From positions 1-36,659 of the IMG/VR virus record IMGVR_UViG_3300030107_004138: a stretch of DNA of 36,659 nucleotides; one strand, 5' to 3'. A program made the position numbers and the translations under genes. Numbering within the stretch: position 1 is the first letter of the stretch; each line of letters starts with the position of its first letter. Positions 3,493 to 36,659 of this stretch are shown here, piece by piece. A model generated the notes under the pieces. That model saw only the letters and a program-made list of their open reading frames with translations. It made no database searches and was not told the DNA's origin. This DNA is from a virus.

Positions 3493-6400
3493 TTATTTTT
3501 GTGCAGCCTGTGCTGCCATTTGCATTCCAATCATTTGCGAGTTGTTCTGAACATACGTTTGTACTTCAGCAACAGCCCATTGATAATATTTATTAGCTTC
3601 AGCTTCATAAAGCTGAGCCTTCTGTGAATTTAAAGTAGTTTTTTGAGTTTCTGAAACAACTTCTGCTTGATATTTTTGTAAATCTGCAGTATAAAGAGCT
3701 ACTTTGTTCTGATATTCTTGAAATTCTTTTGTTAATGTATTAGTATAATCTTGAACTTCTTTATTTACATCAGCTTGGTAAGCTTGTAATTGATTTGCAT
3801 ATTTTTGCAATTTAGAAGAATACTCTTGAGCGTCTTTAGTTTGTTGATTAGTAGCTTCTTGTATTTTTTCTTGTAACTCATTTTGAAAAACTGTTTGTTC
3901 TTTATTAAACTCATTTAATTCATTTTGAATATCAGCTTGAAATGTTTGTATTTTACTTTGATAATCAGTTTGATATTTTAAGAAATTTTGATTCCATTCT
4001 TCTGCTGTCCATTTCTGTACTGCACTAGCTACTTGCATTTGATATGATTGTAATTCAGCAGAATACTTTTGAATTTTAACATTATTATCTGCAATTATAT
4101 CTTCCATTTGCTTAGTCGCATTTTCTATAGCCAATGCTTGATCTTGTGCTTTATTAAACTTTTCTATATCTGTTGCAAGTGAAGCTTCTTGCTGAGCGTC
4201 CTGAGCATCTAATTGAGCCTGTGTTATTACTTTTTGCAAATCCGATTGATGCTTGGCTAATTCTGCTTGGATATTTGCTTGATAAATAGCATTCTCTTTA
4301 TTGAACTCGTTCAACTCGTTTTGAATATCTAATTGATATTGTTGAAGAGTATCTGATTCTGTTTTAGACCAAGCTTCCATAACTATTGCTATTTCAGCTT
4401 GATATCTTGCCACTTTTTGGGAATACTCTTGAACTTGAGATTGAACTTCTGCTTGATAAGAAGTTAGTTCAGAATTGTATTTTTGAATTTTATTATTATT
4501 ATCTGCTATAACATCTTCTATTTGTTTTGCAGCATTTGCAAGTCCTAGAGCCTGATCTTGAGCTTTATTAAATTTTGCAATATCTACAGCTAAAGCAGCT
4601 TCCTGTTGTGCATCTTGTGCGTCTAGCTGTGCTTGAGTTAGTACTTTCTGTAAATCTGACTGATGTTTTGCTAATTCAGCTTGTACATTAGCCTGATACC
4701 TCACATTTTCTTTATTAAATTCATTCAATTCATTCTGCAAATCTGCTTGTATAGTAGCTATTTGTTTTTGGATATCAGAATCAAAAGCTTTTATTTCATT
4801 ACCGTACTTACCTAATTTATTTTGATTGTCCTGTATAGTACTTTGCATTGATTGACTAGCAGCTTCAAGATTTGCATTATAGGATTGTATATCTTTTTGA
4901 ATTTGATTTGAATATACTTGAGCTTCAGCTTGGTATTTTGCTATTGCTACATTATTATTTTCAATTGCGTCTCTAGCTTGTTCTTTGTTATTTGTTAAAG
5001 CAATTTTATTTGCTTCTGTAGCGTCTGTTAAAGCTTTTTGCAAATCTGTTTGCATAATAGCTTCTTGTCTTTGATAGTCAATTTGATTAGCAGTTAGATT
5101 AGCTTGGTATTTTTTAATTCTATCATTTTGAGTTTCTACCCATGCAGTATAAGCAGTACCAACCTCTAATTGATATCTAGCCATTTTATTACTATACTGT
5201 GAAATTTCTTTTTGGATATCTGCTTGGTATCTTGATAAGTCAGCTTCGTATTTTTGAAGAGTTAATCTATAATCCTGCATTAACGCTTCTAATGTTTTTG
5301 CAGCATTTTGAATATTTACATTAGTAGATAATTGCATTTTTTGTATTGCAGCTTGAGTAGATTGAACCATCTTTGTAGTAGCTGCCTGAGTAGAATTATT
5401 CATTTTAGAAACAGAAGCTTGAGTATCATTTGCAGCATTCGCTACTGAAGCTTGAATCAAAGTTTGCATAGCAGCATTTTTAGAAGAAACATCATTTGAT
5501 GCGTTAGCTATAGAAGCTTGTACTTGAAGTTTTGCATTTTCTATATCAGCTTGCATATCAGCACTATTACTTTGAATTTCGGCTTGAAAAGCGTCTATAT
5601 ATGCTCTTATTTTCTGTATTTGAGCATTCGCTAATTCTACATCTTCTTCATCTTCTATCAAATGCCCTAAGGTTGACCACCACTGATCTACTTCACCTTG
5701 ATCTCCAAGCACATCTATTGTATCTTCATCATCAAGTTGAGAAATATCCGTTAATTCGTTACCATCTCCATTTACAGTCGGTTTAGTATAAGAAGCTGAT
5801 TTTACAGCAGCTGCATCAGTAGGTGCTTCTGCTATAGATGTTCCAGATGCATCAGTAGGACTTGTTGTAATCCCATCTACTGCACCAGCTATAGAATCTT
5901 GAGCTGCTGAAACTGCGTCACCAACAGTAGTGCCTATATAACTTATTGCTGGATCTATAGGAAGTGCTGGAGGAACAGCAGTTATAGTAAAATCACCTGG
6001 ATCATTGTCTCCAAATGGATTACCATCTTCACTTGTATTAAAAAAATCTTCAAATGATGTGAAATCATCTAATGTTGGTGCAGTAAAAACTGGATGAGAA
6101 AAAGAACTCACAGACGTTTGATTAGCATCGCTATAATTTACGGTTGTTAATGAAACTGTCGAAGGCTCTACAGCCAAGCTATTTAATCCTGGGTCAGTAA
6201 ATGATACAGTTGATAAAGAAGGAACTGAAGGAGCTACGGCAGCAATAGCTGTACTGGGTTTAGTATATGTTGGTACATCTCCAGATATATCAGCTTTATT
6301 TACACTTGAAACAGTAATAGGAATTATAGTTCCAACTCCAGATACATCATCATTAGTAACATCTGCATATGAAACAGTTGTTAACGATGGAACAGATGGT

Positions 6401-7344
6401 GGAATAACTACTACTGAAAATATCCCAGGGTCGCTATCTCCAAATGAATTTGTCGAACCATCAAAAAATGTGTCAAATGAAACCCTTGTTGTAATTGTTG
6501 GCTTAGTATAAGTAGGTGTATTTCCGCTAATATCTGCTTTATTAACAGAAGCAACAGTTATCGCACCAATAGAAGAAGCACTAGCATCTGCATTAATTGC
6601 ATCTGTATAATTAACAGTTGATATACTTGGTACAATAGGAGAAACTGGAAGATCCAATGAACCAACAGAACCAAGAGTCGGTACAGATATATTGGGTTTA
6701 GTATATGCAGGTGCACTAGCACTTATTGAAATTGCCCCTGTGTCAAAAGACGGATCACTTGGAGCAGTAGGAACAACAGCATTTATGGATAAATCGCTAC
6801 CAAAATCAGGAGATGCTGGTGCTATTGGAACACTCACATCACTCCAGTCTGGCATTGTGTCACTTGATAATTTTGTAAATTCTTTAGCACAGGCATGAAA
6901 AATAACAGCATTTCTTAAATCAGAATCATCATCTAGCTGAGAAAAGTCAATATATTCTACATGAGCTGTTACGCTATCTGTAGGAGCTGGTTTAACTTGT
7001 ACTTTATTATTAGCATCTTTCCAATATTTAGGATATTTTGACGTAGCAAGTTTTAAACTTCCTGAATCACCTATAAAAGCCCTATCTTCTATCGGAACTT
7101 CATATGCAACATAATCACCTCTTCTTACAGATATAATATTGTCTGTTCCTACTGGAAGTGTTATTGCTGTAGGGCTTGCATCGCCACCATGCGTACCTGC
7201 TGTTGTTTCAGTTGAAGCCCATTTTAATAAATTCTTTGGAACGCTTGATACAATAAATTTTTGTGCAGAAACAATAAACTGGTCGTCAGCGTCCGAAACT
7301 CCAGTTATGTTTTCTATATCTAATTCTATACTTGTTGTTGCCAT
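3493..7344 (-). CDS. Giant repetitive structural protein: connector-like N-terminus, Pro/Thr repeats and long coiled coil
   Basis: This gene encodes 1283 aa in three visible regions. Residues 1-160 resemble the N-terminal domain of neck/connector-type proteins (PVGTDNIISVRRGDYVAYEV, then YPKYWKDANNKVQVKPAPTD, then a helix ending HACAKEFTKL). Residues about 170-560 are Pro/Ser/Thr-rich with internal repeats: VNKADISG..PTYTKP twice, and F(G/F)D.DPG.F twice. Residues about 590-1283 are a Gln/Asn/Ala-rich helical coiled coil full of 'YQAE/QADIQ' units. It includes a block of about 135 aa repeated at residues 869 and 1007 and partly at 1139. No start SD is obvious; a G/C hairpin lies just upstream. 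It could be a long fibre, a tape-measure-like or an internal core protein; a connector-anchored fibre fits best. The role is inference. Confidence 0.6.
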   Translation of the reverse strand: MATTSIELDIENITGVSDADDQFIVSAQKFIVSSVPKNLLKWASTETTAGTHGGDASPTAITLPVGTDNIISVRRGDYVAYEVPIEDRAFIGDSGSLKLATSKYPKYWKDANNKVQVKPAPTDSVTAHVEYIDFSQLDDDSDLRNAVIFHACAKEFTKLSSDTMPDWSDVSVPIAPASPDFGSDLSINAVVPTAPSDPSFDTGAISISASAPAYTKPNISVPTLGSVGSLDLPVSPIVPSISTVNYTDAINADASASSIGAITVASVNKADISGNTPTYTKPTITTRVSFDTFFDGSTNSFGDSDPGIFSVVVIPPSVPSLTTVSYADVTNDDVSGVGTIIPITVSSVNKADISGDVPTYTKPSTAIAAVAPSVPSLSTVSFTDPGLNSLAVEPSTVSLTTVNYSDANQTSVSSFSHPVFTAPTLDDFTSFEDFFNTSEDGNPFGDNDPGDFTITAVPPALPIDPAISYIGTTVGDAVSAAQDSIAGAVDGITTSPTDASGTSIAEAPTDAAAVKSASYTKPTVNGDGNELTDISQLDDEDTIDVLGDQGEVDQWWSTLGHLIEDEEDVELANAQIQKIRAYIDAFQAEIQSNSADMQADIENAKLQVQASIANASNDVSSKNAAMQTLIQASVANAANDTQASVSKMNNSTQAATTKMVQSTQAAIQKMQLSTNVNIQNAAKTLEALMQDYRLTLQKYEADLSRYQADIQKEISQYSNKMARYQLEVGTAYTAWVETQNDRIKKYQANLTANQIDYQRQEAIMQTDLQKALTDATEANKIALTNNKEQARDAIENNNVAIAKYQAEAQVYSNQIQKDIQSYNANLEAASQSMQSTIQDNQNKLGKYGNEIKAFDSDIQKQIATIQADLQNELNEFNKENVRYQANVQAELAKHQSDLQKVLTQAQLDAQDAQQEAALAVDIAKFNKAQDQALGLANAAKQIEDVIADNNNKIQKYNSELTSYQAEVQSQVQEYSQKVARYQAEIAIVMEAWSKTESDTLQQYQLDIQNELNEFNKENAIYQANIQAELAKHQSDLQKVITQAQLDAQDAQQEASLATDIEKFNKAQDQALAIENATKQMEDIIADNNVKIQKYSAELQSYQMQVASAVQKWTAEEWNQNFLKYQTDYQSKIQTFQADIQNELNEFNKEQTVFQNELQEKIQEATNQQTKDAQEYSSKLQKYANQLQAYQADVNKEVQDYTNTLTKEFQEYQNKVALYTADLQKYQAEVVSETQKTTLNSQKAQLYEAEANKYYQWAVAEVQTYVQNNSQMIGMQMAAQAAQK
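3790..4740 (-). repeat. Tandem repeats of about 130-138 codons in the giant coiled-coil gene
   Basis: In the protein read from the minus strand, the segment beginning QNELNEFNKEN starts at residue 869 (about position 4740) and again at residue 1007 (about 4326). A shortened copy starts at residue 1139 (about 3930). Copies one and two share AELAKHQSDLQKV, TQAQLDAQDAQQEA and FNKAQDQAL almost word for word. Their DNA differs mostly at synonymous positions (for example AATTCATTTAATTCATT against AACTCGTTCAACTCGTT). This suggests old duplication kept by protein-level selection rather than a recent copy. The period (138 then 132 residues) suits a modular length-setting coiled coil. Confidence 0.8.
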
Positions 7345-15940: not shown

Positions 15941-15956
15941 GCCCCCGTCAGGGGGC
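15941..15956 (-). promoter_or_regulatory. Hairpin covering the terminase small-subunit ribosome binding site
   Basis: GCCCCC (15941-15946), loop GTCA and GGGGGC (15951-15956) form a perfect 6-bp GC stem. On the minus-strand mRNA the 3' arm reads GGGGGC and lies about 6 bases before the ATG at 15934. It is also the only SD-like sequence there, so folding would mask it. It lies between the 68-aa gene and terS. Without a U-run it is not a normal terminator. Confidence 0.5.
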
Positions 15957-17362: not shown

Positions 17363-17434
17363 AGCGGGGCGGAGAAGTGGTAACTCATTTGGCTCATAAC
17401 CAAAAGATAGCAGGTTCGATTCCTGCCCCCGCAA
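17363..17434 (+). tRNA. tRNA-Met (CAT anticodon), initiator-like
   Basis: A complete cloverleaf is visible. The acceptor is GCGGGG/CCCCGC (17364-17369 with 17427-17432), with an unpaired A1 (17363) and A72 (17433). The D arm follows, then anticodon stem TTTGG/CCAAA with loop CTCATAA (anticodon CAT at 17395-17397). The T arm is GCAGG-TTCGATT-CCTGC (17410-17426). CCA is not encoded. The 5' part, GCGGGG-N-G-GAG, and the mismatched 1-72 pair match bacterial tRNA-fMet rather than elongator tRNA-Met. The anticodon stem has TGG/CCA instead of the usual GGG/CCC, so initiator activity is likely but not certain. Confidence 0.88.
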
Positions 17435-17445
17435 CAAGACTGCGT

Positions 17446-20940: not shown

Positions 20941-21834
20941 ATGGAATTTCACATTTCACAAAAAGACTGGAAAAAGGTTATAGATTATGCCCAAGCATCT
21001 TATGATCAATTTTCAGCTGAAATTGGCGGATTTATGATTGCCAAAAAGAACAAAGATGGTGATTATGTTATATCTAATCCAGAAATACTAAAGCAAGAAG
21101 TTACTGGTGGAACAACTGAAATGGAAAAAGAAGCTGTAGCTGATTATTATGTTAAAGCATCTATGAAATATGGAAGTGATGTTCGATTTGTATGGTGGCA
21201 TTCACATGCTAATATGTCTGCTTTCTGGTCTGGGACAGATACAAATACAATGAAAGAATATAAAAGCGGTGACTGGTCAGCGTTTCTTGTGGTAAATATT
21301 CGTGGTGAATACAAATTCAGAGTATGTGTTTGGAACCCAATAGAAGCACATGAAGATATAGATCTAAATATTCTAGGAGCTAAAGCAAGAAAAGTTCCTA
21401 AGACTGTTACAGATTCCGTATCAAAATTATGTTCAAAGCCAACATATACTACACCTAAACGAGTTAATACCTGGACTAAGGAAGATGATAGACAAGTAAG
21501 TCTTTATAATAGTGGATTTGGATATGGTACATATTATGGAAATGGATATTATAAAACTACCATAGAAACAAAAGATGATGACATTATGTTAACATCTACT
21601 GTTGATCATGTAGACAATATATGTAGTTTATATACTGAAGGTATATTCACATATAAAGATTGGCTTTTAGATGTTAAAAAATGGAATAAAACACTTAAGA
21701 AAAAGGATAAAAGCTTTAATATTGTTGAAGTTACGGAGAATGAATTGCATGAAAAATGCGGTTATTATACTGGATATGATCCTATGGATTTAGTAAATTT
21801 GGAGGATAAGAATGAGCAGAATATCGAGGTTTGA
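20941..21834 (+). CDS. JAB/JAMM-family metallopeptidase (deubiquitinase-like)
   Basis: This gene encodes 297 aa with SD AAAGGAG. The N-terminal 140 residues form a JAB/MPN domain: Glu27 in SAEIGGFMIA, then WWHSHANMSAFWSGTD. That segment matches the zinc motif H-x-H-x7-S-x2-D exactly (His87, His89, Ser97, Asp100). These residues coordinate zinc and catalyse isopeptide or peptide cleavage in known members. The remaining 150 residues are Tyr/Gly/Lys/Asp-rich (SGFGYGTYYGNGYY) and have no known domain. The gene overlaps the E1-like gene by 23 bases, so the two are translationally coupled. A likely job is trimming the KKA tail from the ubiquitin-like protein or removing it from targets. Phage tail-assembly JAB proteins are an alternative, but this one is far from tail genes. 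Confidence 0.85.
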   Translation: MEFHISQKDWKKVIDYAQASYDQFSAEIGGFMIAKKNKDGDYVISNPEILKQEVTGGTTEMEKEAVADYYVKASMKYGSDVRFVWWHSHANMSAFWSGTDTNTMKEYKSGDWSAFLVVNIRGEYKFRVCVWNPIEAHEDIDLNILGAKARKVPKTVTDSVSKLCSKPTYTTPKRVNTWTKEDDRQVSLYNSGFGYGTYYGNGYYKTTIETKDDDIMLTSTVDHVDNICSLYTEGIFTYKDWLLDVKKWNKTLKKKDKSFNIVEVTENELHEKCGYYTGYDPMDLVNLEDKNEQNIEV

Positions 21835-28218: not shown

Positions 28219-28535
28219 CACATCCTAGTAAAGTTAAAGGAAACACATTTGAAAGAGAATGCGTAAATAAAGCGAAAAATAAGGGTATAGAAGCTAAAAG
28301 AGCTTACGGGTCTAATGGAATGTCACTTGGACTAGAAGAAGAGGTTGACGCCCTTATTGGACAATATAAAGTACAATGCAAAAGAAGAAAGCGTATCGCA
28401 AAATGGATTAAGCCTCCTAATTGTTGTGATGTTGCATTAGTACGTGAAGATAGGGGAGAAGCCTATATCATTATGGAATACGATGAATGGCTAGACCTTA
28501 TTAAAAGAGCAGAACTATACCTAAAACTAGGATAG
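28215..28535 (+). CDS. Holliday-junction-resolvase-like (Hjc-type PD-(D/E)XK) nuclease
   Basis: This gene encodes 106 aa. Compact resolvase features are visible: SKVKGNTFERECVNKAKNKGI with Glu13, a Ser/Gly loop (YGSNGMSLGLEEE), EVDALIGQ with Asp45, and YKVQCKRRKRI giving Q-x-K (Gln54, Lys56). The C-terminal strand-helix is DVALVREDRGEAYIIMEYDEWLDLI. The order E...D...QxK and the size match Hjc/VRR-NUC-type enzymes that cut branched DNA, useful before packaging. It is the last early gene. Its stop overlaps by nine bases the stop of the convergent 958-aa gene, leaving no room for a separate terminator. Confidence 0.65.
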   Translation: MTHPSKVKGNTFERECVNKAKNKGIEAKRAYGSNGMSLGLEEEVDALIGQYKVQCKRRKRIAKWIKPPNCCDVALVREDRGEAYIIMEYDEWLDLIKRAELYLKLG

Positions 28536-31403
28536 TAATGTTAAAGCCTGGAGAGCAGCATCCGCATTTTGTGTGGGCTGCTTTCTCTTCGGGTATTTAT
28601 ACCTCATCCAATCTTGTTTAAATATAGGATGTAAGTTTCTTCCTACCCATTTTTTAGCTGAATCTCTTATATCTCGTATATCTTGGTCTGGAAATACGCC
28701 AGTTTCTAACCTCATCGCATCTATAAGACCACGTTCATAAAGAAGAGGCATACTATATGTCCAAGTCCTAGCCATTTGTGAGTTTATAAGTGAAAGTGCT
28801 TTATACTGTTTTACTCTATCATCTACAAAAGCAAGATCTTCTCTATAAACAGCATCTTTATCCATTTCTCTAAAATTCTTTACTTCAGCTAAAGATAAAA
28901 GAAATCCAACATTGGGCCCAAGAAAATAATAACCACCTTGTCCATATGTCTTTTTTTCCAACTTTTTTACAGCTTCAGGATCATCTCTGTCTGTAGCAAA
29001 CCATGAATATGCAGCATCTACTGTTTGTGCAACATCATTACTTAATACACTATCTGTCCTAATATTAGTAAGTGGTGCAAATATATTATTAATCATTCCT
29101 GTTACAATACCTAATCTCATCATAACAAACATTTCTTCACTTGTAAAATCACCTGCTTTCATTGATACTTTAGCTTTATTATACCAATCCATCATCATAT
29201 CTAGATTTGAAAATCTATAATGCATAAACTGACCAAGAACTGTTCCTGCTCTTCCTTTAAGACCTGGCCCACCTTGTAATGCTTTAGCTTTAGCCCATTT
29301 AGCATATTCATAATGAATATCCAAAACTGAGTTATATCCTATTTGACCTGCTTCATTAGCCATCCATTTTTGTATTTTTTCACTAGCACCTTCAGCCTTT
29401 ATATTTATTCCTGATTTATTAGCTATCCATTCAGGAGACATATTTTGAAGGTTTTTGTAAGCAATCGCAAATCCCATTCTAAATGTTCTTGACCTATTCC
29501 AGTCTTCAACAACTTTATGCATAAAAGCTGCTTTGTCAGATATTGAAGATGCTCCTCTAGCAATTATATCTGTAACGCCATCAGTAGACCTTACTATTTC
29601 ACCCTCAGCACTTACTTTTAAGCCTTTACCCGTAAAAAAAGATTCCTGCAATGCACCTTTAGATGCTGCAGATATATCACCCTTACCTTTAAATGCATCA
29701 AGGATAGTAGAGCTTGCTTCTTTACCGTCAAACCATAAAAGACCAAATCTTTTAGCTTGACTATTTGCAAGTTCAGCATTTTCTGTTCCACCAGCTTCAG
29801 TATAAAATCTTCTAGCATCTTTTAATCCCTTAAATCCCCACCTATTTAATTCATACACTCTTTGAGTTCCATTACGAAGAGCACTACGCATATTACCGCC
29901 TAATAACCTAAAATATGTTAATGCACTTATTGTTCTCATAATATTGTCACTAACTACAGTATCACCAGCATCAAGTTTTTGAACTGTATTATATACATCA
30001 GTAGCAACTCTTAAATGATGATCTAATGCTTCAGCAACTGTTTCGTTTTTTGCTATTTTAGCAGGAGCTAAATGTTCATTCATTAATGTATCAGTTGCAC
30101 GCTTAAAACTGTCTTTTACGTGTATTTTATAATTAAATAAAGAAACATCACCAACGTATTTGTTAAGAAACATAAATGGATCAAGACTATATTCGCTATC
30201 TACAGAAGACCTCGTTTTTACTCTATCTATAACACCTTCAAGATTAGTGACTTCTTCTCTAATATTTTTCATTAATTCAGGTAGCGTTTCTCCTTTAAGA
30301 GGTTCTTTTCTAAGAGCTCTTTCTATCTTCCCAAGTATTTTTGGAATGCCTAGTACATATTGTGGCATATATTGCCTATTCGAAACCATGTAATTATTGC
30401 CTTTTCTTACAGCATAATCACTACCTTCAGTAAATCCAAAAGTTTGCATTTGCTCATCGGCTTTAAAGTACTCAAGGTCTTTTATTGGTTGACCTTCTTT
30501 ATCAACAACTCTTTGAAATTCAATTTCTTTTATGCGGTTTTTAATATCTGCTAATATCTTATCCATACCTGGAATATTGCTATCTTTGTTAATAGATATT
30601 ACTTTTTGCAACCCTCTTATTAAGTTAATTGAAGTTGATTTTCTTATTTCATTCCATTCACGCTTCATATTATTTAATAAAGCTTCTTCTTTAGCACCAA
30701 ATCCATACTTGCTTCTAAGCTCTGGAATACCAGCACCTTGAAACACTTCTGATAATATTAAATTAGCTCTACCAGCACCTTTTGTTAGAAGGTTCATTTT
30801 TTTATGTCTTAATTCTTGATATAAACCTTGATTTATTGTTTTACCTGCTGATTTATTTGCAATAATTGGCTCTAGCTGTGCTTCTAATTTGCTATATTCT
30901 GTAGGAGGCCCACCTAATGCACCTGAAAACTTTTTAAAATTATGCAATATGTCGTTAATACGTTTGTTATTATCTACGTTTTCTCTTCTAAAAAACCCTG
31001 TTTCAGCTACTAATTCTTGTTGGTATTTATTAAGCTCTGGTAATCTCATTAAAATACGTCTTGGAAGTTTTAAATTTGCCATTATAGCTCCATCTTTTGT
31101 TCCAAGTATTCCATTAAACTCTTGAAGTCTTATTTCAAATTTTTTAACATCTTTTAAATTAGGTATTGCACCTTTTATTGGGTCTAGTGGCAAGCCAGTA
31201 GCTTCTTCATATATACGTTCAAATTGTTCAAATGTGTTGTACTGAGCATCTTTTATATTTTTATATCTTGCACCAATTTCCCAATCAGCAGCTATTTTAT
31301 TCATACGCTGATGTACTTTCTTTTTCTTTTCAGGAGAAATTCTTTCTCCTTTAGCTCTTTTTTTATTTAATACATGAGAAGCACAAGACAATATACTAGA
31401 CAT
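28527..31403 (-). CDS. Large internal-virion / ejection-type protein (958 aa)
   Basis: The start is ATG 31403 (MSSILSCASHVLNKKRAKGER), because GGAG lies six bases before it; a TTG 12 bases upstream overlaps that SD. The protein is mostly helical and basic. It has long amphipathic stretches (about residues 30-330), and a central part with YFRLLGGNMRSALRNGTQRVYELNR and ISDKAAFMHKVVEDWNRSRTF. The C-terminal part is Gly/aromatic (YGQGGYYFLGPNVGFLLSLAEV). Large proteins with such 'LG..R.al.n..Q' and C-terminal PLxRFG-like parts occur in phages as internal or ejected virion proteins. No catalytic motif is evident. It follows the 1711-aa gene in the same direction, which suggests co-packaging. Confidence 0.5.
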   Translation of the reverse strand: MSSILSCASHVLNKKRAKGERISPEKKKKVHQRMNKIAADWEIGARYKNIKDAQYNTFEQFERIYEEATGLPLDPIKGAIPNLKDVKKFEIRLQEFNGILGTKDGAIMANLKLPRRILMRLPELNKYQQELVAETGFFRRENVDNNKRINDILHNFKKFSGALGGPPTEYSKLEAQLEPIIANKSAGKTINQGLYQELRHKKMNLLTKGAGRANLILSEVFQGAGIPELRSKYGFGAKEEALLNNMKREWNEIRKSTSINLIRGLQKVISINKDSNIPGMDKILADIKNRIKEIEFQRVVDKEGQPIKDLEYFKADEQMQTFGFTEGSDYAVRKGNNYMVSNRQYMPQYVLGIPKILGKIERALRKEPLKGETLPELMKNIREEVTNLEGVIDRVKTRSSVDSEYSLDPFMFLNKYVGDVSLFNYKIHVKDSFKRATDTLMNEHLAPAKIAKNETVAEALDHHLRVATDVYNTVQKLDAGDTVVSDNIMRTISALTYFRLLGGNMRSALRNGTQRVYELNRWGFKGLKDARRFYTEAGGTENAELANSQAKRFGLLWFDGKEASSTILDAFKGKGDISAASKGALQESFFTGKGLKVSAEGEIVRSTDGVTDIIARGASSISDKAAFMHKVVEDWNRSRTFRMGFAIAYKNLQNMSPEWIANKSGINIKAEGASEKIQKWMANEAGQIGYNSVLDIHYEYAKWAKAKALQGGPGLKGRAGTVLGQFMHYRFSNLDMMMDWYNKAKVSMKAGDFTSEEMFVMMRLGIVTGMINNIFAPLTNIRTDSVLSNDVAQTVDAAYSWFATDRDDPEAVKKLEKKTYGQGGYYFLGPNVGFLLSLAEVKNFREMDKDAVYREDLAFVDDRVKQYKALSLINSQMARTWTYSMPLLYERGLIDAMRLETGVFPDQDIRDIRDSAKKWVGRNLHPIFKQDWMRYKYPKRKQPTQNADAALQALTLLS

Positions 31404-31505
31404 AACATACTCCAAGAAAGTTTGAAAAATTAATCGGCTGGGGGGTACGACTTTTAAAATTAAATTTCAAATTTTTATATATATAGATAAACATTTTCGT
31501 TATTT

Positions 31506-34500
31506 TTAATCTAGATTGAGGCATTTGAAAAGTTCTTCTACTCTACCCTTAGTTGATTCTTTTATTGTCCCACCTTGTCCCATATTTCTACCCCTATATG
31601 CATCCATAACACCAAAGTTTCTTACTTCTACATCACCAAATGTATTAGTTTTTCTATCAAAAACTTTCATCATAAATTGTTGGTCTACGGGAATCCCAGG
31701 TCTTTTTGCAGTACCTCTTTCCATTTCTTTTGATGCTCTATAAAGAGTAGCGGAATCAACAAGTTTTTTACCTGACATATAATCATACATAATTCCTGCA
31801 GCTCGCCTTTCTCTCGCACTACCATCTCTTAACAATTGGAATATTCCTTTGTTTAAGTATTGAGCATCAGTCATAAATCCATTTGGTAACTCTGTGGGTT
31901 CTGTAAAACCACCTTTTTCTACCTTTCTCATATCAACTTCAATACCAGTACGTTCTTGAACATAATGATTTCTTGACATGTTAATAAAGTCTCTGAGTAA
32001 TTCATTGGCACTTATTTTATCCAACCCGCCTTTTGCTTGGATACTTCCATTTGCAACTTGTGCTAAAGTATTGTACACAGTTTTTGCTAAATTATTTTCT
32101 ATATATTTTATTGAACCTATACTTGCTGTCCTAGAATGATTTCCAAATCTTATTGTTTCTATAGGAGATACAGTTTCATCAAAACGAGGTCTTAACATCC
32201 TAGCAAGTAATGCAAATTGCCTTATAGGATTATCAGCAAAATCTGGGCTTGCTAATTTATCAAGAACTAATGCAGTACGTCTAGCAGCATATTCACCTAA
32301 AGATGCTTGAGTGCGATCAGGTAGGTTTGAATAAGCATCAGCTATAGAAGCTTTTAATTTACCATATTCTGCATTGATAAATATTTGCTCACCTCCAGAT
32401 ATATAATCTATCCTCCCATCTTTGTGTACATATTTTACTTGACCGCCAAATGCTTTATAATCAGCTCGCAATCCCATTTGGATCTCACCTTCAACTATTT
32501 CATATCTATGACCATTTATTACCAGCTTATCTGAAGGACTTAAAAACTTTATATTAGACTTACCTGGAAGAACAACTTCTTTTGTTTCACCACTTTTATT
32601 TATAATTACTACAGGTTTATTTTTATAGTTTGTATATGCTCCTGCTTGTTTTACTTTTTTTCTTGCAGGATTACGATCATATGTATTTTCTGAATTACCT
32701 GGATCATAAGATAATCTCTCTTCAATAATTGATTTTAATTCTTCTGTTCTTATTTTTTTCTCTACTAATCTTTGATATTCTGCACTACTTTGTATATCAC
32801 CGCCTCTTCCTCCTAAGCTATTAAGATCTTCTAACCTTCTATTTATTCTTCTTAGATCCGCAGACATAAATTCAAGTTGAACAATATCACCAGATTTCAT
32901 TTGCATTTCTCTCATTGCTCTTTCAGCTATCCTATTCATCTGAAATTGATTTGCTAATTCTGGCTGTATGTTATTAGGAAGTGTCCAGTTATTTGGAACC
33001 CTACCTGAATCTATATACTCTAATATTCTATGAGTACTTGGCCTGCTTTCATCAAATGAATGAGTTTTATTAGCTATGCTATTTAATTCTTTCATTGCAA
33101 AATCAAATGGATTCTGAGATCTATCAAAGAAATTATTTGCAGATTCATACATACCTGAATTATCATATTCTCCTTTTATTACTTTATGATTTCTTCCGTG
33201 TTTAGGAAGAATAGAGAACATAAGGTTTTGTCTTGCACGTTGATAGTCTTGTAGGGTTGCTGACATATCTCTATTGGTTTCATCAACAGTAGTACCTTTA
33301 TTGTATCTTAAGTATTTATTTATAGGAGAAATAAGACCATAATATATATCATCCCGTACTTGTTTCATGCTTTCAGATTGATAGTTAATATTTTCTTTTA
33401 ATATTGAACCGTCTTTTAAATCACGAAGTTCAAACAATCCTTTATGTTCTACTCCTCCACGATTGAATCCAAAAAATAACTCTCTCATTAAAGCATCTGG
33501 ATTTTCTGTATAAAACTTAGGATTCTGTTTATACATATCTAAAAATAGTTTTACACTAGAAGATACCTCATCAACTGTATCAAAATATCTAAGCTTATCT
33601 ACATTTAATCTAACTTCCATCATTCTATGAGGGTCTTTTAAATGTCTCATTTGTATCAGTAAAGGTGACTCTCTATATATATTATGTAAGTATGTAAGGG
33701 TTTGATGCATCTTTACAAATCTACCTCTTGCAAGGTCAGTAGCATTCATTTCACCTTTATATTGTTGAGGGTCTCCTTCAAATGTAAATAGCTTTGGATC
33801 CGCCTTGCTAAATATTTGATCAGCTATTGCATTTAATCCTTTGATATCATTAACTGTTCTATATCCAGAAAGCCTTGCCGCTTCAGCCCATAATCTATTA
33901 GGAGCAGCAAGAAATGAGGATGATTTATCCATATCATAGTCAGCATCTTGTGGGTTAATAGCATCAGAGTGATTCATTCTACTACTATTACCTGCTAAAT
34001 CTCCATTATGAGTAATGATCCTACCATCTTTACCTTCAAATGCTTTCAATCTAGAGATAACAAGGTCACCTGCCTGGTTTCTTGGTTGTCTATTATTTAT
34101 AGAACCAATAGCCATTGTATTGTCAAACTGATAAAGTTCTGTCATCGCTTCACTATAAGTAGAACCACTTTTTACCCTTGCTAAGAAATCGTTTTCTTTT
34201 TTCTCTACTTGTTTAAATAAATTTCTATTTAATGCTTGTGCTTTTTTATTATCTGATTCTGAACCTTGGTATGATATCTTAGAATCATTATATATATCTC
34301 TTAGATTACCATCTTTATCTATACCTTTTCCTTCTACAATAAGATATTTTTCAGCACCACGCTTAACCATAAAAACATCTGCTGTTCTTTGTTGAAGTAT
34401 AGGTTGCTTAATAGCAGCATCTATATCCTTAACTTCTTTTCCAAAGTTTGAATACTTAACACGCTGTATAATAACACTTTGCACATCTGGTCTATCATTT

Positions 34501-36641
34501 CCACCACCCAACTTAAAAGGTTTTTCAGCAGAGTGTTTTGATTGTAAGAATTCACCATATAACTGTACAGATTTAGTTCCATCTGCCTCTGTTCTTACTA
34601 CAGAAGTTTTTAAACCACCCATGTCTGCTGTCATTACATCTAAAGAACCTTCTGGTACACGACCTGCAGCAATCATACCATTGTTCATAAAATAAGGTAT
34701 TATCTTTTCTTCTATTTTTGTTCTTTGCCAAGGTGATGTAAGTAAGCCATCATGTTTTAAGAAATGGTCTATCCCTGTATTTAACCAAGTCATATCTCCT
34801 GTTTCAGAAGAGTGGGCAAATAAATCTTTTGCAAGTCTTGTAGCATAATAAGGATCTACATAATTTTGAAAAGAATCATAGACATTTTTTAACTTAGCAT
34901 CAAGATTAATCCATTCCTTAATTCCTACATTATGATGCAAGTGAACACCTAAATTAGATCCAACTAAGGGATCGTGAGGTTGGCCTAGTGATTTTAAATT
35001 AATAGACTCAAATGGTATTTCACTTATATTGGTTTTGTCAAAAATAAGATTACCTTGCTTAGAAAGCCAGTCACTAACAGACCCAAAGTCTTTAGATAAA
35101 GCTTCAAAGTTTTCTATAGGCTTTAGTGATGCATGTACATTTCTACCACCATCTCTTATTGTAGATTCCATTGCTTTTACATCTGTATTATACCAGTCAC
35201 TTGTTTTATTGTTTCTAAATTCATTTATTTTATTAGAAGAATTAAATGTTATTGCATCTACGCCAAGCTGAGAAAGTAAAGCATCAAATTCAGGGTTGTA
35301 TTTAAATGCTGTTTTTGCATAAAATTCTTTTACCCTGCCATACTGTGACATGTCAGCCATATCTGTTTTAATATCTGTGTGAGATATAGTTGGTTTTATA
35401 CCTCCAACTTTAATGTCTTTAATACTCCCATCTGGATTGAAAGAAATCATATCAGGACTGATACCGCCCATCATTGCGAGATTAGCTACAAAAGCACGTT
35501 TAGATAAAAAGGTTTCACCATCTACTATTGACTTTGTTAGTTGTTCATAATTTTTAATATTTTCATTATAAGTTCTTTCATTGATAACCCCAGTGTTTTT
35601 CAATTCTGTTAGTTCAGCTTTTTTATGATCAATAGATGAAAATATATTAACTTTTTTACCTTCATGAACCATTTCATCAGCAACAGATAGAATTTTTAAC
35701 TTTGGAAATTTTGCTTTCTTGTCTTTCGGTAAAAATAGCCTAGCTTGATCTAATACATTTTTAAAGAAACCAGATTTATCTGAAACTGCAGCACCTTCTA
35801 AGAATGACCTTACTCTTGCAAGGTTTTCTTCATGGCCTACAAATCCATTTTTCATTTCACTTAACTTTAGATACTTCCATGTCTTTTTTCTTTCTTCTGG
35901 AGTAAGTTCAGCCCACTTTCTTATAAGAGAAGGTCTATCATTTATCAATCTTGTAAGTACTACTGCATCATGTATATCGTTATCTTTTAAATCAGAAGTT
36001 TTTTCATTAATCCTATCAACTAATTCTCTTATATTTGATGGAAATTGGTTTTGGTCTAATGATGCCTGAAGTTTTTCATAAAGATGACCACCTTCAATTC
36101 TATTTCCATTAGCATCTTCCCCTGATCTGCGAAAACCTGAAAGAAGATCTTGACCTATTCTATTATCACGACCTATTCTAACAAGCATTAATGTGCTTTC
36201 ATCAGCCGCTATAACTTTAAATCTTTGCTTACTTAAATCAATTGTTTCATTACCCTGTGCCCTAGCATGGTCTTCTACTTTCTTTTTATCACCTAAAAAT
36301 TCTCTAAAGCCATTTGCCATCTCAATAGGAATACCTTCACCAGATTCTATTTCTTTAATGATACGATCCATTTGCCTTCTTGAAGGTTTTGAAACATATT
36401 TACCATCTATGTAGAAACTATTGCTAAGTAATGATATCTCAGATGTGGCGTTTAAGGCTGAAATTACACCCTGTATGCCGTGTTTTTCTGTATAGCCTAC
36501 TTGTTTATCAGCTAGCTCTAAACGACCTGATCTATAGCTATATTGTTTAATAGGCATACTGCTAAAGTACGCAGTAGTAATAGAACTTATATCAGATAAT
36601 AATCTTTGATTAAATCTATTCCACCCACCTTCAGGTTCCAT
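31506..36641 (-). CDS. Giant virion protein, candidate virion RNA polymerase with DxDxD motif
   Basis: This gene encodes at least 1711 aa. ATG 36641 is a possible start (GAGGT nine bases upstream), but the frame stays open to the window edge, so the N-terminus may extend beyond it. Near the middle, QAGDLVISRLKAFEGKDGR is followed by NHSDAINPQDADYDMDKSSS. Asp901, Asp903 and Asp905 form D-Y-D-M-D, with Lys906 next. This resembles the crAss-like-phage virion RNA polymerase pattern 'v.Ri..f.......(Q)GADFDIDK', where the DxDxD in a double-psi barrel binds catalytic magnesium. The second barrel with its basic residues was not found. The remainder is a hydrophilic mixture without known domains. A large ejection protein without polymerase activity is the alternative. 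Confidence 0.45.
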   Translation of the reverse strand: MEPEGGWNRFNQRLLSDISSITTAYFSSMPIKQYSYRSGRLELADKQVGYTEKHGIQGVISALNATSEISLLSNSFYIDGKYVSKPSRRQMDRIIKEIESGEGIPIEMANGFREFLGDKKKVEDHARAQGNETIDLSKQRFKVIAADESTLMLVRIGRDNRIGQDLLSGFRRSGEDANGNRIEGGHLYEKLQASLDQNQFPSNIRELVDRINEKTSDLKDNDIHDAVVLTRLINDRPSLIRKWAELTPEERKKTWKYLKLSEMKNGFVGHEENLARVRSFLEGAAVSDKSGFFKNVLDQARLFLPKDKKAKFPKLKILSVADEMVHEGKKVNIFSSIDHKKAELTELKNTGVINERTYNENIKNYEQLTKSIVDGETFLSKRAFVANLAMMGGISPDMISFNPDGSIKDIKVGGIKPTISHTDIKTDMADMSQYGRVKEFYAKTAFKYNPEFDALLSQLGVDAITFNSSNKINEFRNNKTSDWYNTDVKAMESTIRDGGRNVHASLKPIENFEALSKDFGSVSDWLSKQGNLIFDKTNISEIPFESINLKSLGQPHDPLVGSNLGVHLHHNVGIKEWINLDAKLKNVYDSFQNYVDPYYATRLAKDLFAHSSETGDMTWLNTGIDHFLKHDGLLTSPWQRTKIEEKIIPYFMNNGMIAAGRVPEGSLDVMTADMGGLKTSVVRTEADGTKSVQLYGEFLQSKHSAEKPFKLGGGNDRPDVQSVIIQRVKYSNFGKEVKDIDAAIKQPILQQRTADVFMVKRGAEKYLIVEGKGIDKDGNLRDIYNDSKISYQGSESDNKKAQALNRNLFKQVEKKENDFLARVKSGSTYSEAMTELYQFDNTMAIGSINNRQPRNQAGDLVISRLKAFEGKDGRIITHNGDLAGNSSRMNHSDAINPQDADYDMDKSSSFLAAPNRLWAEAARLSGYRTVNDIKGLNAIADQIFSKADPKLFTFEGDPQQYKGEMNATDLARGRFVKMHQTLTYLHNIYRESPLLIQMRHLKDPHRMMEVRLNVDKLRYFDTVDEVSSSVKLFLDMYKQNPKFYTENPDALMRELFFGFNRGGVEHKGLFELRDLKDGSILKENINYQSESMKQVRDDIYYGLISPINKYLRYNKGTTVDETNRDMSATLQDYQRARQNLMFSILPKHGRNHKVIKGEYDNSGMYESANNFFDRSQNPFDFAMKELNSIANKTHSFDESRPSTHRILEYIDSGRVPNNWTLPNNIQPELANQFQMNRIAERAMREMQMKSGDIVQLEFMSADLRRINRRLEDLNSLGGRGGDIQSSAEYQRLVEKKIRTEELKSIIEERLSYDPGNSENTYDRNPARKKVKQAGAYTNYKNKPVVIINKSGETKEVVLPGKSNIKFLSPSDKLVINGHRYEIVEGEIQMGLRADYKAFGGQVKYVHKDGRIDYISGGEQIFINAEYGKLKASIADAYSNLPDRTQASLGEYAARRTALVLDKLASPDFADNPIRQFALLARMLRPRFDETVSPIETIRFGNHSRTASIGSIKYIENNLAKTVYNTLAQVANGSIQAKGGLDKISANELLRDFINMSRNHYVQERTGIEVDMRKVEKGGFTEPTELPNGFMTDAQYLNKGIFQLLRDGSARERRAAGIMYDYMSGKKLVDSATLYRASKEMERGTAKRPGIPVDQQFMMKVFDRKTNTFGDVEVRNFGVMDAYRGRNMGQGGTIKESTKGRVEELFKCLNLD

Positions 36642-36659
36642 GACTGCTTTACCTCTATG

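Follow-up and report, generated by a model that had tools for sequence, protein, structure and literature searches.

A giant protein of an uncultured marine phage with a predicted single-chain two-barrel RNA polymerase in its C-terminal half

Does the giant gene at the end of the analysed DNA encode an RNA polymerase that the virus carries into its host? The window, i.e., the whole stretch of 36,659 nt that was analysed, comes from the 59,189-bp (~59 kb) record of an uncultured marine bacteriophage. A first-pass annotation of its sequence had taken a DxDxD motif in this gene for the mark of a candidate virion RNA polymerase. Two-barrel RNA polymerases are known to be injected by crAss-like gut phages and by a few Thermus phages. 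Based on conservation, fold prediction and profile comparison, we consider it very probable that the C-terminal half of the giant protein is an RNA polymerase like those injected by crAss-like phages.

Extent of the Giant Gene and Its DxDxD Motif

In the ORF reading of the window, the gene is a minus-strand ORF at 31506-36641 (1711 aa) that is open at the window end. Beyond that end, it crosses a short run of N and continues to 3087 aa (L001:1506-10769, minus strand). Relatives possess unbroken ORFs of 3071-3075 aa that are 69-87% identical to the window protein over the common part. The length of 1711 aa given in the first-pass annotation was therefore wrong, as the window cuts the gene: 31506-36659 holds the C-terminal 1.7 kaa of a giant protein that appears, from its continuation and its intact relatives, to measure about 3,080 aa, with an N-terminal half of ~1,400 residues, and the gene extends past the window to ~40769 of G000:C1. 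The run of N lies inside the gene just beyond the window end (~36659 onward; L001 ~6660) and represents a scaffold gap, the relatives being uninterrupted there.

The stretch QDADYDMDK, on which the polymerase proposal had been built, is present at residues 898-906 of the ORF, with VISRLKAFEGKDGR just before it and D901, D903, and D905 encoded at 33941-33927. It is part of the candidate catalytic loop NPQDADYDMDK (residues 896-906, 33924-33956, minus strand like the other features of the gene below), which aligned with DFDIDK of the crAss-like phage polymerase gp66 and with DNDGD of a second family, family II, and in which the three aspartates are the predicted metal ligands. Given the length of the intact relatives, these aspartates correspond to residues ~2277, ~2279, and ~2281 of the full protein. 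A bare DxDxD is weak evidence, as 41% (at 1711 aa) to 49% (at 3087 aa) of shuffled sequences contain one; it becomes significant because it is conserved, has invariant surroundings, and sits in a matching fold.

Conservation Across Viral Contigs

We scanned 2.9 million viral contigs in six frames for the pattern P-x-D-A-D-[FY]-D-x-D-K. The scan returned 42 viral stretches, 41 of which were located in giant ORFs with a common context consisting of R-x-P, GD/ND-x-V-I, G-x-x-S-x-M-N-x-x-D (with variants), and the loop. When the A and K were no longer required, two true members (PQDSDFDMDK) were added along with unrelated chance matches. A giant protein of this kind was present in 43 contigs. Identity of these proteins, designated family I, to the window protein was ~20-40%; full-length members measured 2935-3128 aa and carried the motif at 2155-2319, ~800 aa from the C-terminus.

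Since the pattern forces its own letters (the D, A, and K of the loop), the informative invariants are those outside it. Invariant or nearly so were R851, P853, V861, N890, D893, Q898, K416, K443, and K471. R851 and P853 form an R-x-P (34083-34091) whose R and P were found in 34/34 sequences, and gp66 likewise has an R-x-P ahead of its DxDxD. K416 (35394-35396) was kept in 30/30 sequences of family I alignment A4, and K443 (35313-35315) and K471 (35229-35231) in 32/32 each. This lysine trio was invariant in alignments A4 and A7 and in a profile of crAss-type polymerases, and resembles K1012/K1027/K1065 of gp66. K702 and K710 had also been considered as barrel-B lysines; they were dropped because they lie outside the conserved family columns, whereas K416, K443, and K471 are invariant.

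A looser loop pattern had zero matches in 257 Gb of cellular genomes, and no host or prophage copies were found in these genome contigs. Searches of Pfam, PHROG, and PDB sequences with the window protein and family I yielded no polymerase match; the best PDB-sequence match, the Wza polysaccharide export protein, was taken as chance, the common part being only QDADFDLDK. Neither family had a match in 50,697 phage records (INPHARED, tblastn/blastn). No description of the lineage or of the protein architecture was found in the open-licence literature. The enzyme class, single-chain two-barrel phage RNA polymerases, is already known; the lineage and the architecture are new to the literature searched.

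A Second Family at the Same Locus

The portal protein was 61-91% identical to that of the window in 14 of 20 family records, the remaining records being partial. Two records, G022 (58 kb) and G023 (62 kb), were reached by portal similarity, and their portal (92%), capsid (97-98%), and TerL (94%) are nearly identical to those of the window record. The family I giant-protein profile had no match in either. At the same locus, they encode a protein of 2981 and 2982 aa, respectively, whose one DxDxD reads DNDGD and lies at residue 2151 and 2152. Scanning for a motif of the DNDGD type led to family II, the full-length giants of which measure 2973-3043 aa.

The profiles of the two families aligned collinearly across 774 columns at an E of 1e-14, placing the DxDxD loop of one opposite that of the other. 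The real score was 118, whereas reversed or shuffled profiles reached at most 38. Identity between the families was ~15%, and the aspartates and the lysine trio were kept in both. The copies in G022 and G023 constitute an independent test, as they were reached via synteny, without the family I motif. The three aspartates that the first-pass annotation had proposed as catalytic were conserved in every aligned member of families I and II, these two motif-independent copies included.

The giant-polymerase region of G022 and G023 is a swapped or extremely diverged module: near-identical heads are combined with either the PQD[AS]D[FY]DxDK or the RDNDGDH type at one locus, which amounts to a natural experiment with near-identical heads and different polymerases. 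We tentatively suggest, with more doubt than confidence, that an exchangeable cassette comprises the giant polymerase together with its 960-aa neighbour and further genes of the putative ejection block. If this were true and early promoters switched along, marine phages would swap a whole entry-transcription specificity by recombination.

When G022 and G023 (L147-L152) were compared with the window record, the 960-aa neighbour was ~20% identical, and L1_331, L1_532, L1_315, and L1_479 were absent or weak.

Predicted Fold

We modelled residues 160-1160 of the window protein with AlphaFold2 (AF2) from a 34-sequence alignment. The resulting 1001-aa core model had a pLDDT of 81.3 and a pTM of 0.81. 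When it was compared to the PDB with VIA-align, all 50 of the matches listed were RNA polymerase chains, at Z-scores (9-10) that are moderate. The broadest of the listed matches was crAss gp66 (6vr4), with 610 residues over model positions 22-1001; QDE-1 aligned over 436 residues and maize RDR2 over 375. The barrel-A part matched the large subunits of Pol I/II/III and of archaeal, bacterial, and vaccinia polymerases (Z 9.1-9.8). Foldseek found nothing significant for the 1001-aa model in the PDB (best E 0.3). Among the BFVD viral models, it matched unnamed viral proteins, which are probably members of the giant-protein family (E 6e-24), and a crAss giant protein (E 1.9e-10).

The first-pass annotation had anticipated double-psi barrels around the motif, and the predicted models indeed match gp66, QDE-1, and RDR2 across the two barrel regions. 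By prediction only, the chain thus appears to hold two double-psi barrels, B before A. The candidate barrel-B region with its preceding helix (residues 371-476, SIVDGE...GIKPT...KTAFKYNP...DAITFNSSNK, 35214-35531) combines a crAss gp66 profile match with AF2 strands at model positions 240-317. The candidate barrel-A region (residues 660-914, with strands inserted, 33900-34664) is the part in which model positions 497-770 align with the largest-subunit barrel of Pol I/II/III and of archaeal and vaccinia RNA polymerases. Past barrel A, a long conserved helix (residues 958-989, 33675-33770; model 799-830) is a candidate bridge helix, assigned by position.

Family II was modelled with AF2 as well (pLDDT 73, pTM 0.67). 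This model matched QDE-1 (Z 11.5), gp66 (Z 11.2, 539 residues), RDR2 (Z 10.5), P23-45 gp96 (Z 8.4, 318 residues), and gp64-type chains (Z 8.0 and 7.6), with gp64 and gp62 among them. All of these named top matches are single-chain two-barrel polymerases.

Remote Sequence Similarity to gp66

We compared a profile of 11 crAss-type polymerases to the family I profile, with shuffled controls. The barrel-B region matched the gp66 family profile with E 4e-4 (1.7e-5 without inserts) and a score of 37.5; shuffles scored 18.2 at most. The core matched with E 1e-3 and 3e-4, above all shuffles. For barrel A, the R-x-P and DFDIDK of gp66 were in register, yet the score did not exceed block shuffles (6 of 60 reached it). 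The homology to gp66 is remote. Tblastn and a single-profile HMM found no sequence match between the giant protein and gp66, and the match between the family II and crAss profiles was not significant.

Proposed Role and Alternative Explanations

The polymerase part of the first-pass proposal was thus supported by the conserved aspartates and by the two-barrel fold match in which gp66 is broadest; the virion part is argued from the giant size, from the position by large minus-strand genes, and from the habit of gp66, P23-45 gp96, and the N4 virion RNA polymerase (vRNAP). We put at roughly 0.78 the probability that the giant protein is a virion (ejection) protein, with a single-chain two-barrel RNA polymerase as its C-terminal half, and that this polymerase is packaged, injected, and transcribes early genes.

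Under this reading, the chain would run from barrel B, with its three invariant lysines, through a connector to barrel A, whose DxDxD loop (D901/D903/D905) would hold the catalytic Mg2+ for RNA synthesis. The phage head would carry the polymerase and drive it into the cell along with the DNA, the N-terminal half of ~1,400 residues would act in packaging or ejection, and transcription of the earliest phage genes would not need the host RNA polymerase. For gp66 and P23-45 gp96, it has been shown that an injected RNA polymerase transcribes the first genes (PMC7886860, PMC10770324). The first-pass annotation had described the early promoters as unlike host sigma70 sites; neither a repeat scan nor a sigma70 scan of the early region gave a promoter candidate above chance. 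The number of sigma70-like sites there (65, with 66.4 expected) equals chance and is neutral for the early-promoter idea.

The best-surviving alternative, which we regard as unlikely, is an active single-chain two-barrel polymerase that is made during infection for middle or late genes, like P23-45 gp64 or YonO, and is not part of the virion. Non-virion single-chain polymerases of the same fold do exist (PMC10770324), and the family II model matches gp64 and gp62 as well as the virion enzymes. The known ones are compact, however, with gp64-type chains of ~590 residues against ~3,080 aa and a 1,400-aa N-terminal extension here. The giant gene moreover shares the minus strand with other large genes and, in the family contigs, adjoins that of the 962-aa protein, in an arrangement resembling virion blocks such as phi14:2 gp65-gp67.

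Considerably less probable is a polymerase relic that has lost catalysis and retains the two-barrel fold for a structural role within an ejection protein. Neither the fold nor the homology implies activity, and the loop has M where DxDGD usually has G; but gp66, a proven polymerase, has I at that position (DFDIDK). The aspartates, R-x-P, the lysine trio, and nearby polar residues are kept across family I despite its divergence, and the aspartates and lysine trio even across the ~15% identity to family II. The idea that DxDxD arose by chance in a structural protein (tape-measure or ejection) with no relation to polymerases is close to refuted: composition alone would give at least one in 41-49% of sequences and no database sequence matches, but the motif is conserved in 43 contigs, the collinear family II has its own DNDGD, and two fold predictions match two-barrel polymerases.

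If the favoured reading of an injected polymerase is right, this strategy appears to extend to a large lineage that lacks annotation, has head genes of the short-tailed-phage type, and has been recovered from metagenomic viral contigs alone. The enzyme class gains dozens of very divergent sequences in two families, and defined catalytic residues are now available to test.

Comparison with Known Systems

The closest counterpart is gp66 of phi14:2, likewise a single chain with barrel B followed by barrel A, R-x-P, a D-x-D-x-D-K loop, and three invariant lysines. Both are giant and lie within a block of large virion genes, putative ones in the window phage. Gp66 is shorter (2,180 aa), and the phages differ: that of the window has a ~59 kb record, an SU10-like capsid, and a P22-like portal, and its head proteins lack a clear match in phi14:2. 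P23-45 gp96 (PDB 8h2m), with the loop DFDGD, is also a polymerase within a giant protein, in its case a virion protein. In that phage, which is long-tailed, the polymerase forms the N-terminal part of a tape measure of 5,002 aa (PMC10770324), unlike here, where it occupies the C-terminal half in a phage with a short-tailed-type portal and capsid.

QDE-1 and the RDR RNA-interference polymerases share the single-chain two-barrel fold (Z 9.5-11.5), but they are cellular, without a virion link and without a sequence match. The N4 vRNAP is a T7-like single-subunit polymerase. It resembles the window protein in giant size and short-tailed phage type, and is itself ejected; it differs from the predicted two-barrel fold with DxDxD, which argues against an N4-like (T7-type) identity. 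No Pfam match to a T7-type polymerase domain was found in the window protein, and one of 34 members had a weak match to the N4 helical domain (E 0.058). The N4-type (schitovirus) enzyme measures ~3,500 aa (PMC12633501).

Phage Context and Additional Observations

The window portal had no crAss match by tblastn. When head profiles were compared to phi14:2 in a 12-protein search, the portal matched with E 0.007, and nothing significant was found for TerL and capsid. Judged by these sequences, the head proteins do not seem to place the phage among the crAss-like phages. Weak TerL matches suggested Zobellviridae, the annotated internal virion proteins of which are shorter (~1,400-1,500 aa).

A 962-aa protein of unknown function (28527-31415, minus strand) is encoded directly downstream of the giant gene in relatives; it was matched by tblastn in 28 family contigs, beside the giant gene. 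A 1283-aa protein (window 3493-7344) had a sub-threshold ApoLp-III match, and its copies in G022 and G023 have other lengths and are ~48-57% identical, next to the 97-98% identical capsids. A strong, terminator-like GC hairpin, GCCCCCTGACGGGGGC, is located at 15941-15956 (minus strand) upstream of the terminase small subunit gene, and a tRNA-Met gene (17363-17435) lies in the non-coding stretch separating the divergent gene blocks. A protein encoded at 20941-21834, close to an AAA_24/Sak4-like gene, has a Prok-JAB domain that barely exceeded the Pfam cut-off. A 1534-aa highly repetitive protein at L002:9055-13659 (minus strand), with many N-x-A-x-G-x repeats and a run of N inside, is probably a tail fibre.
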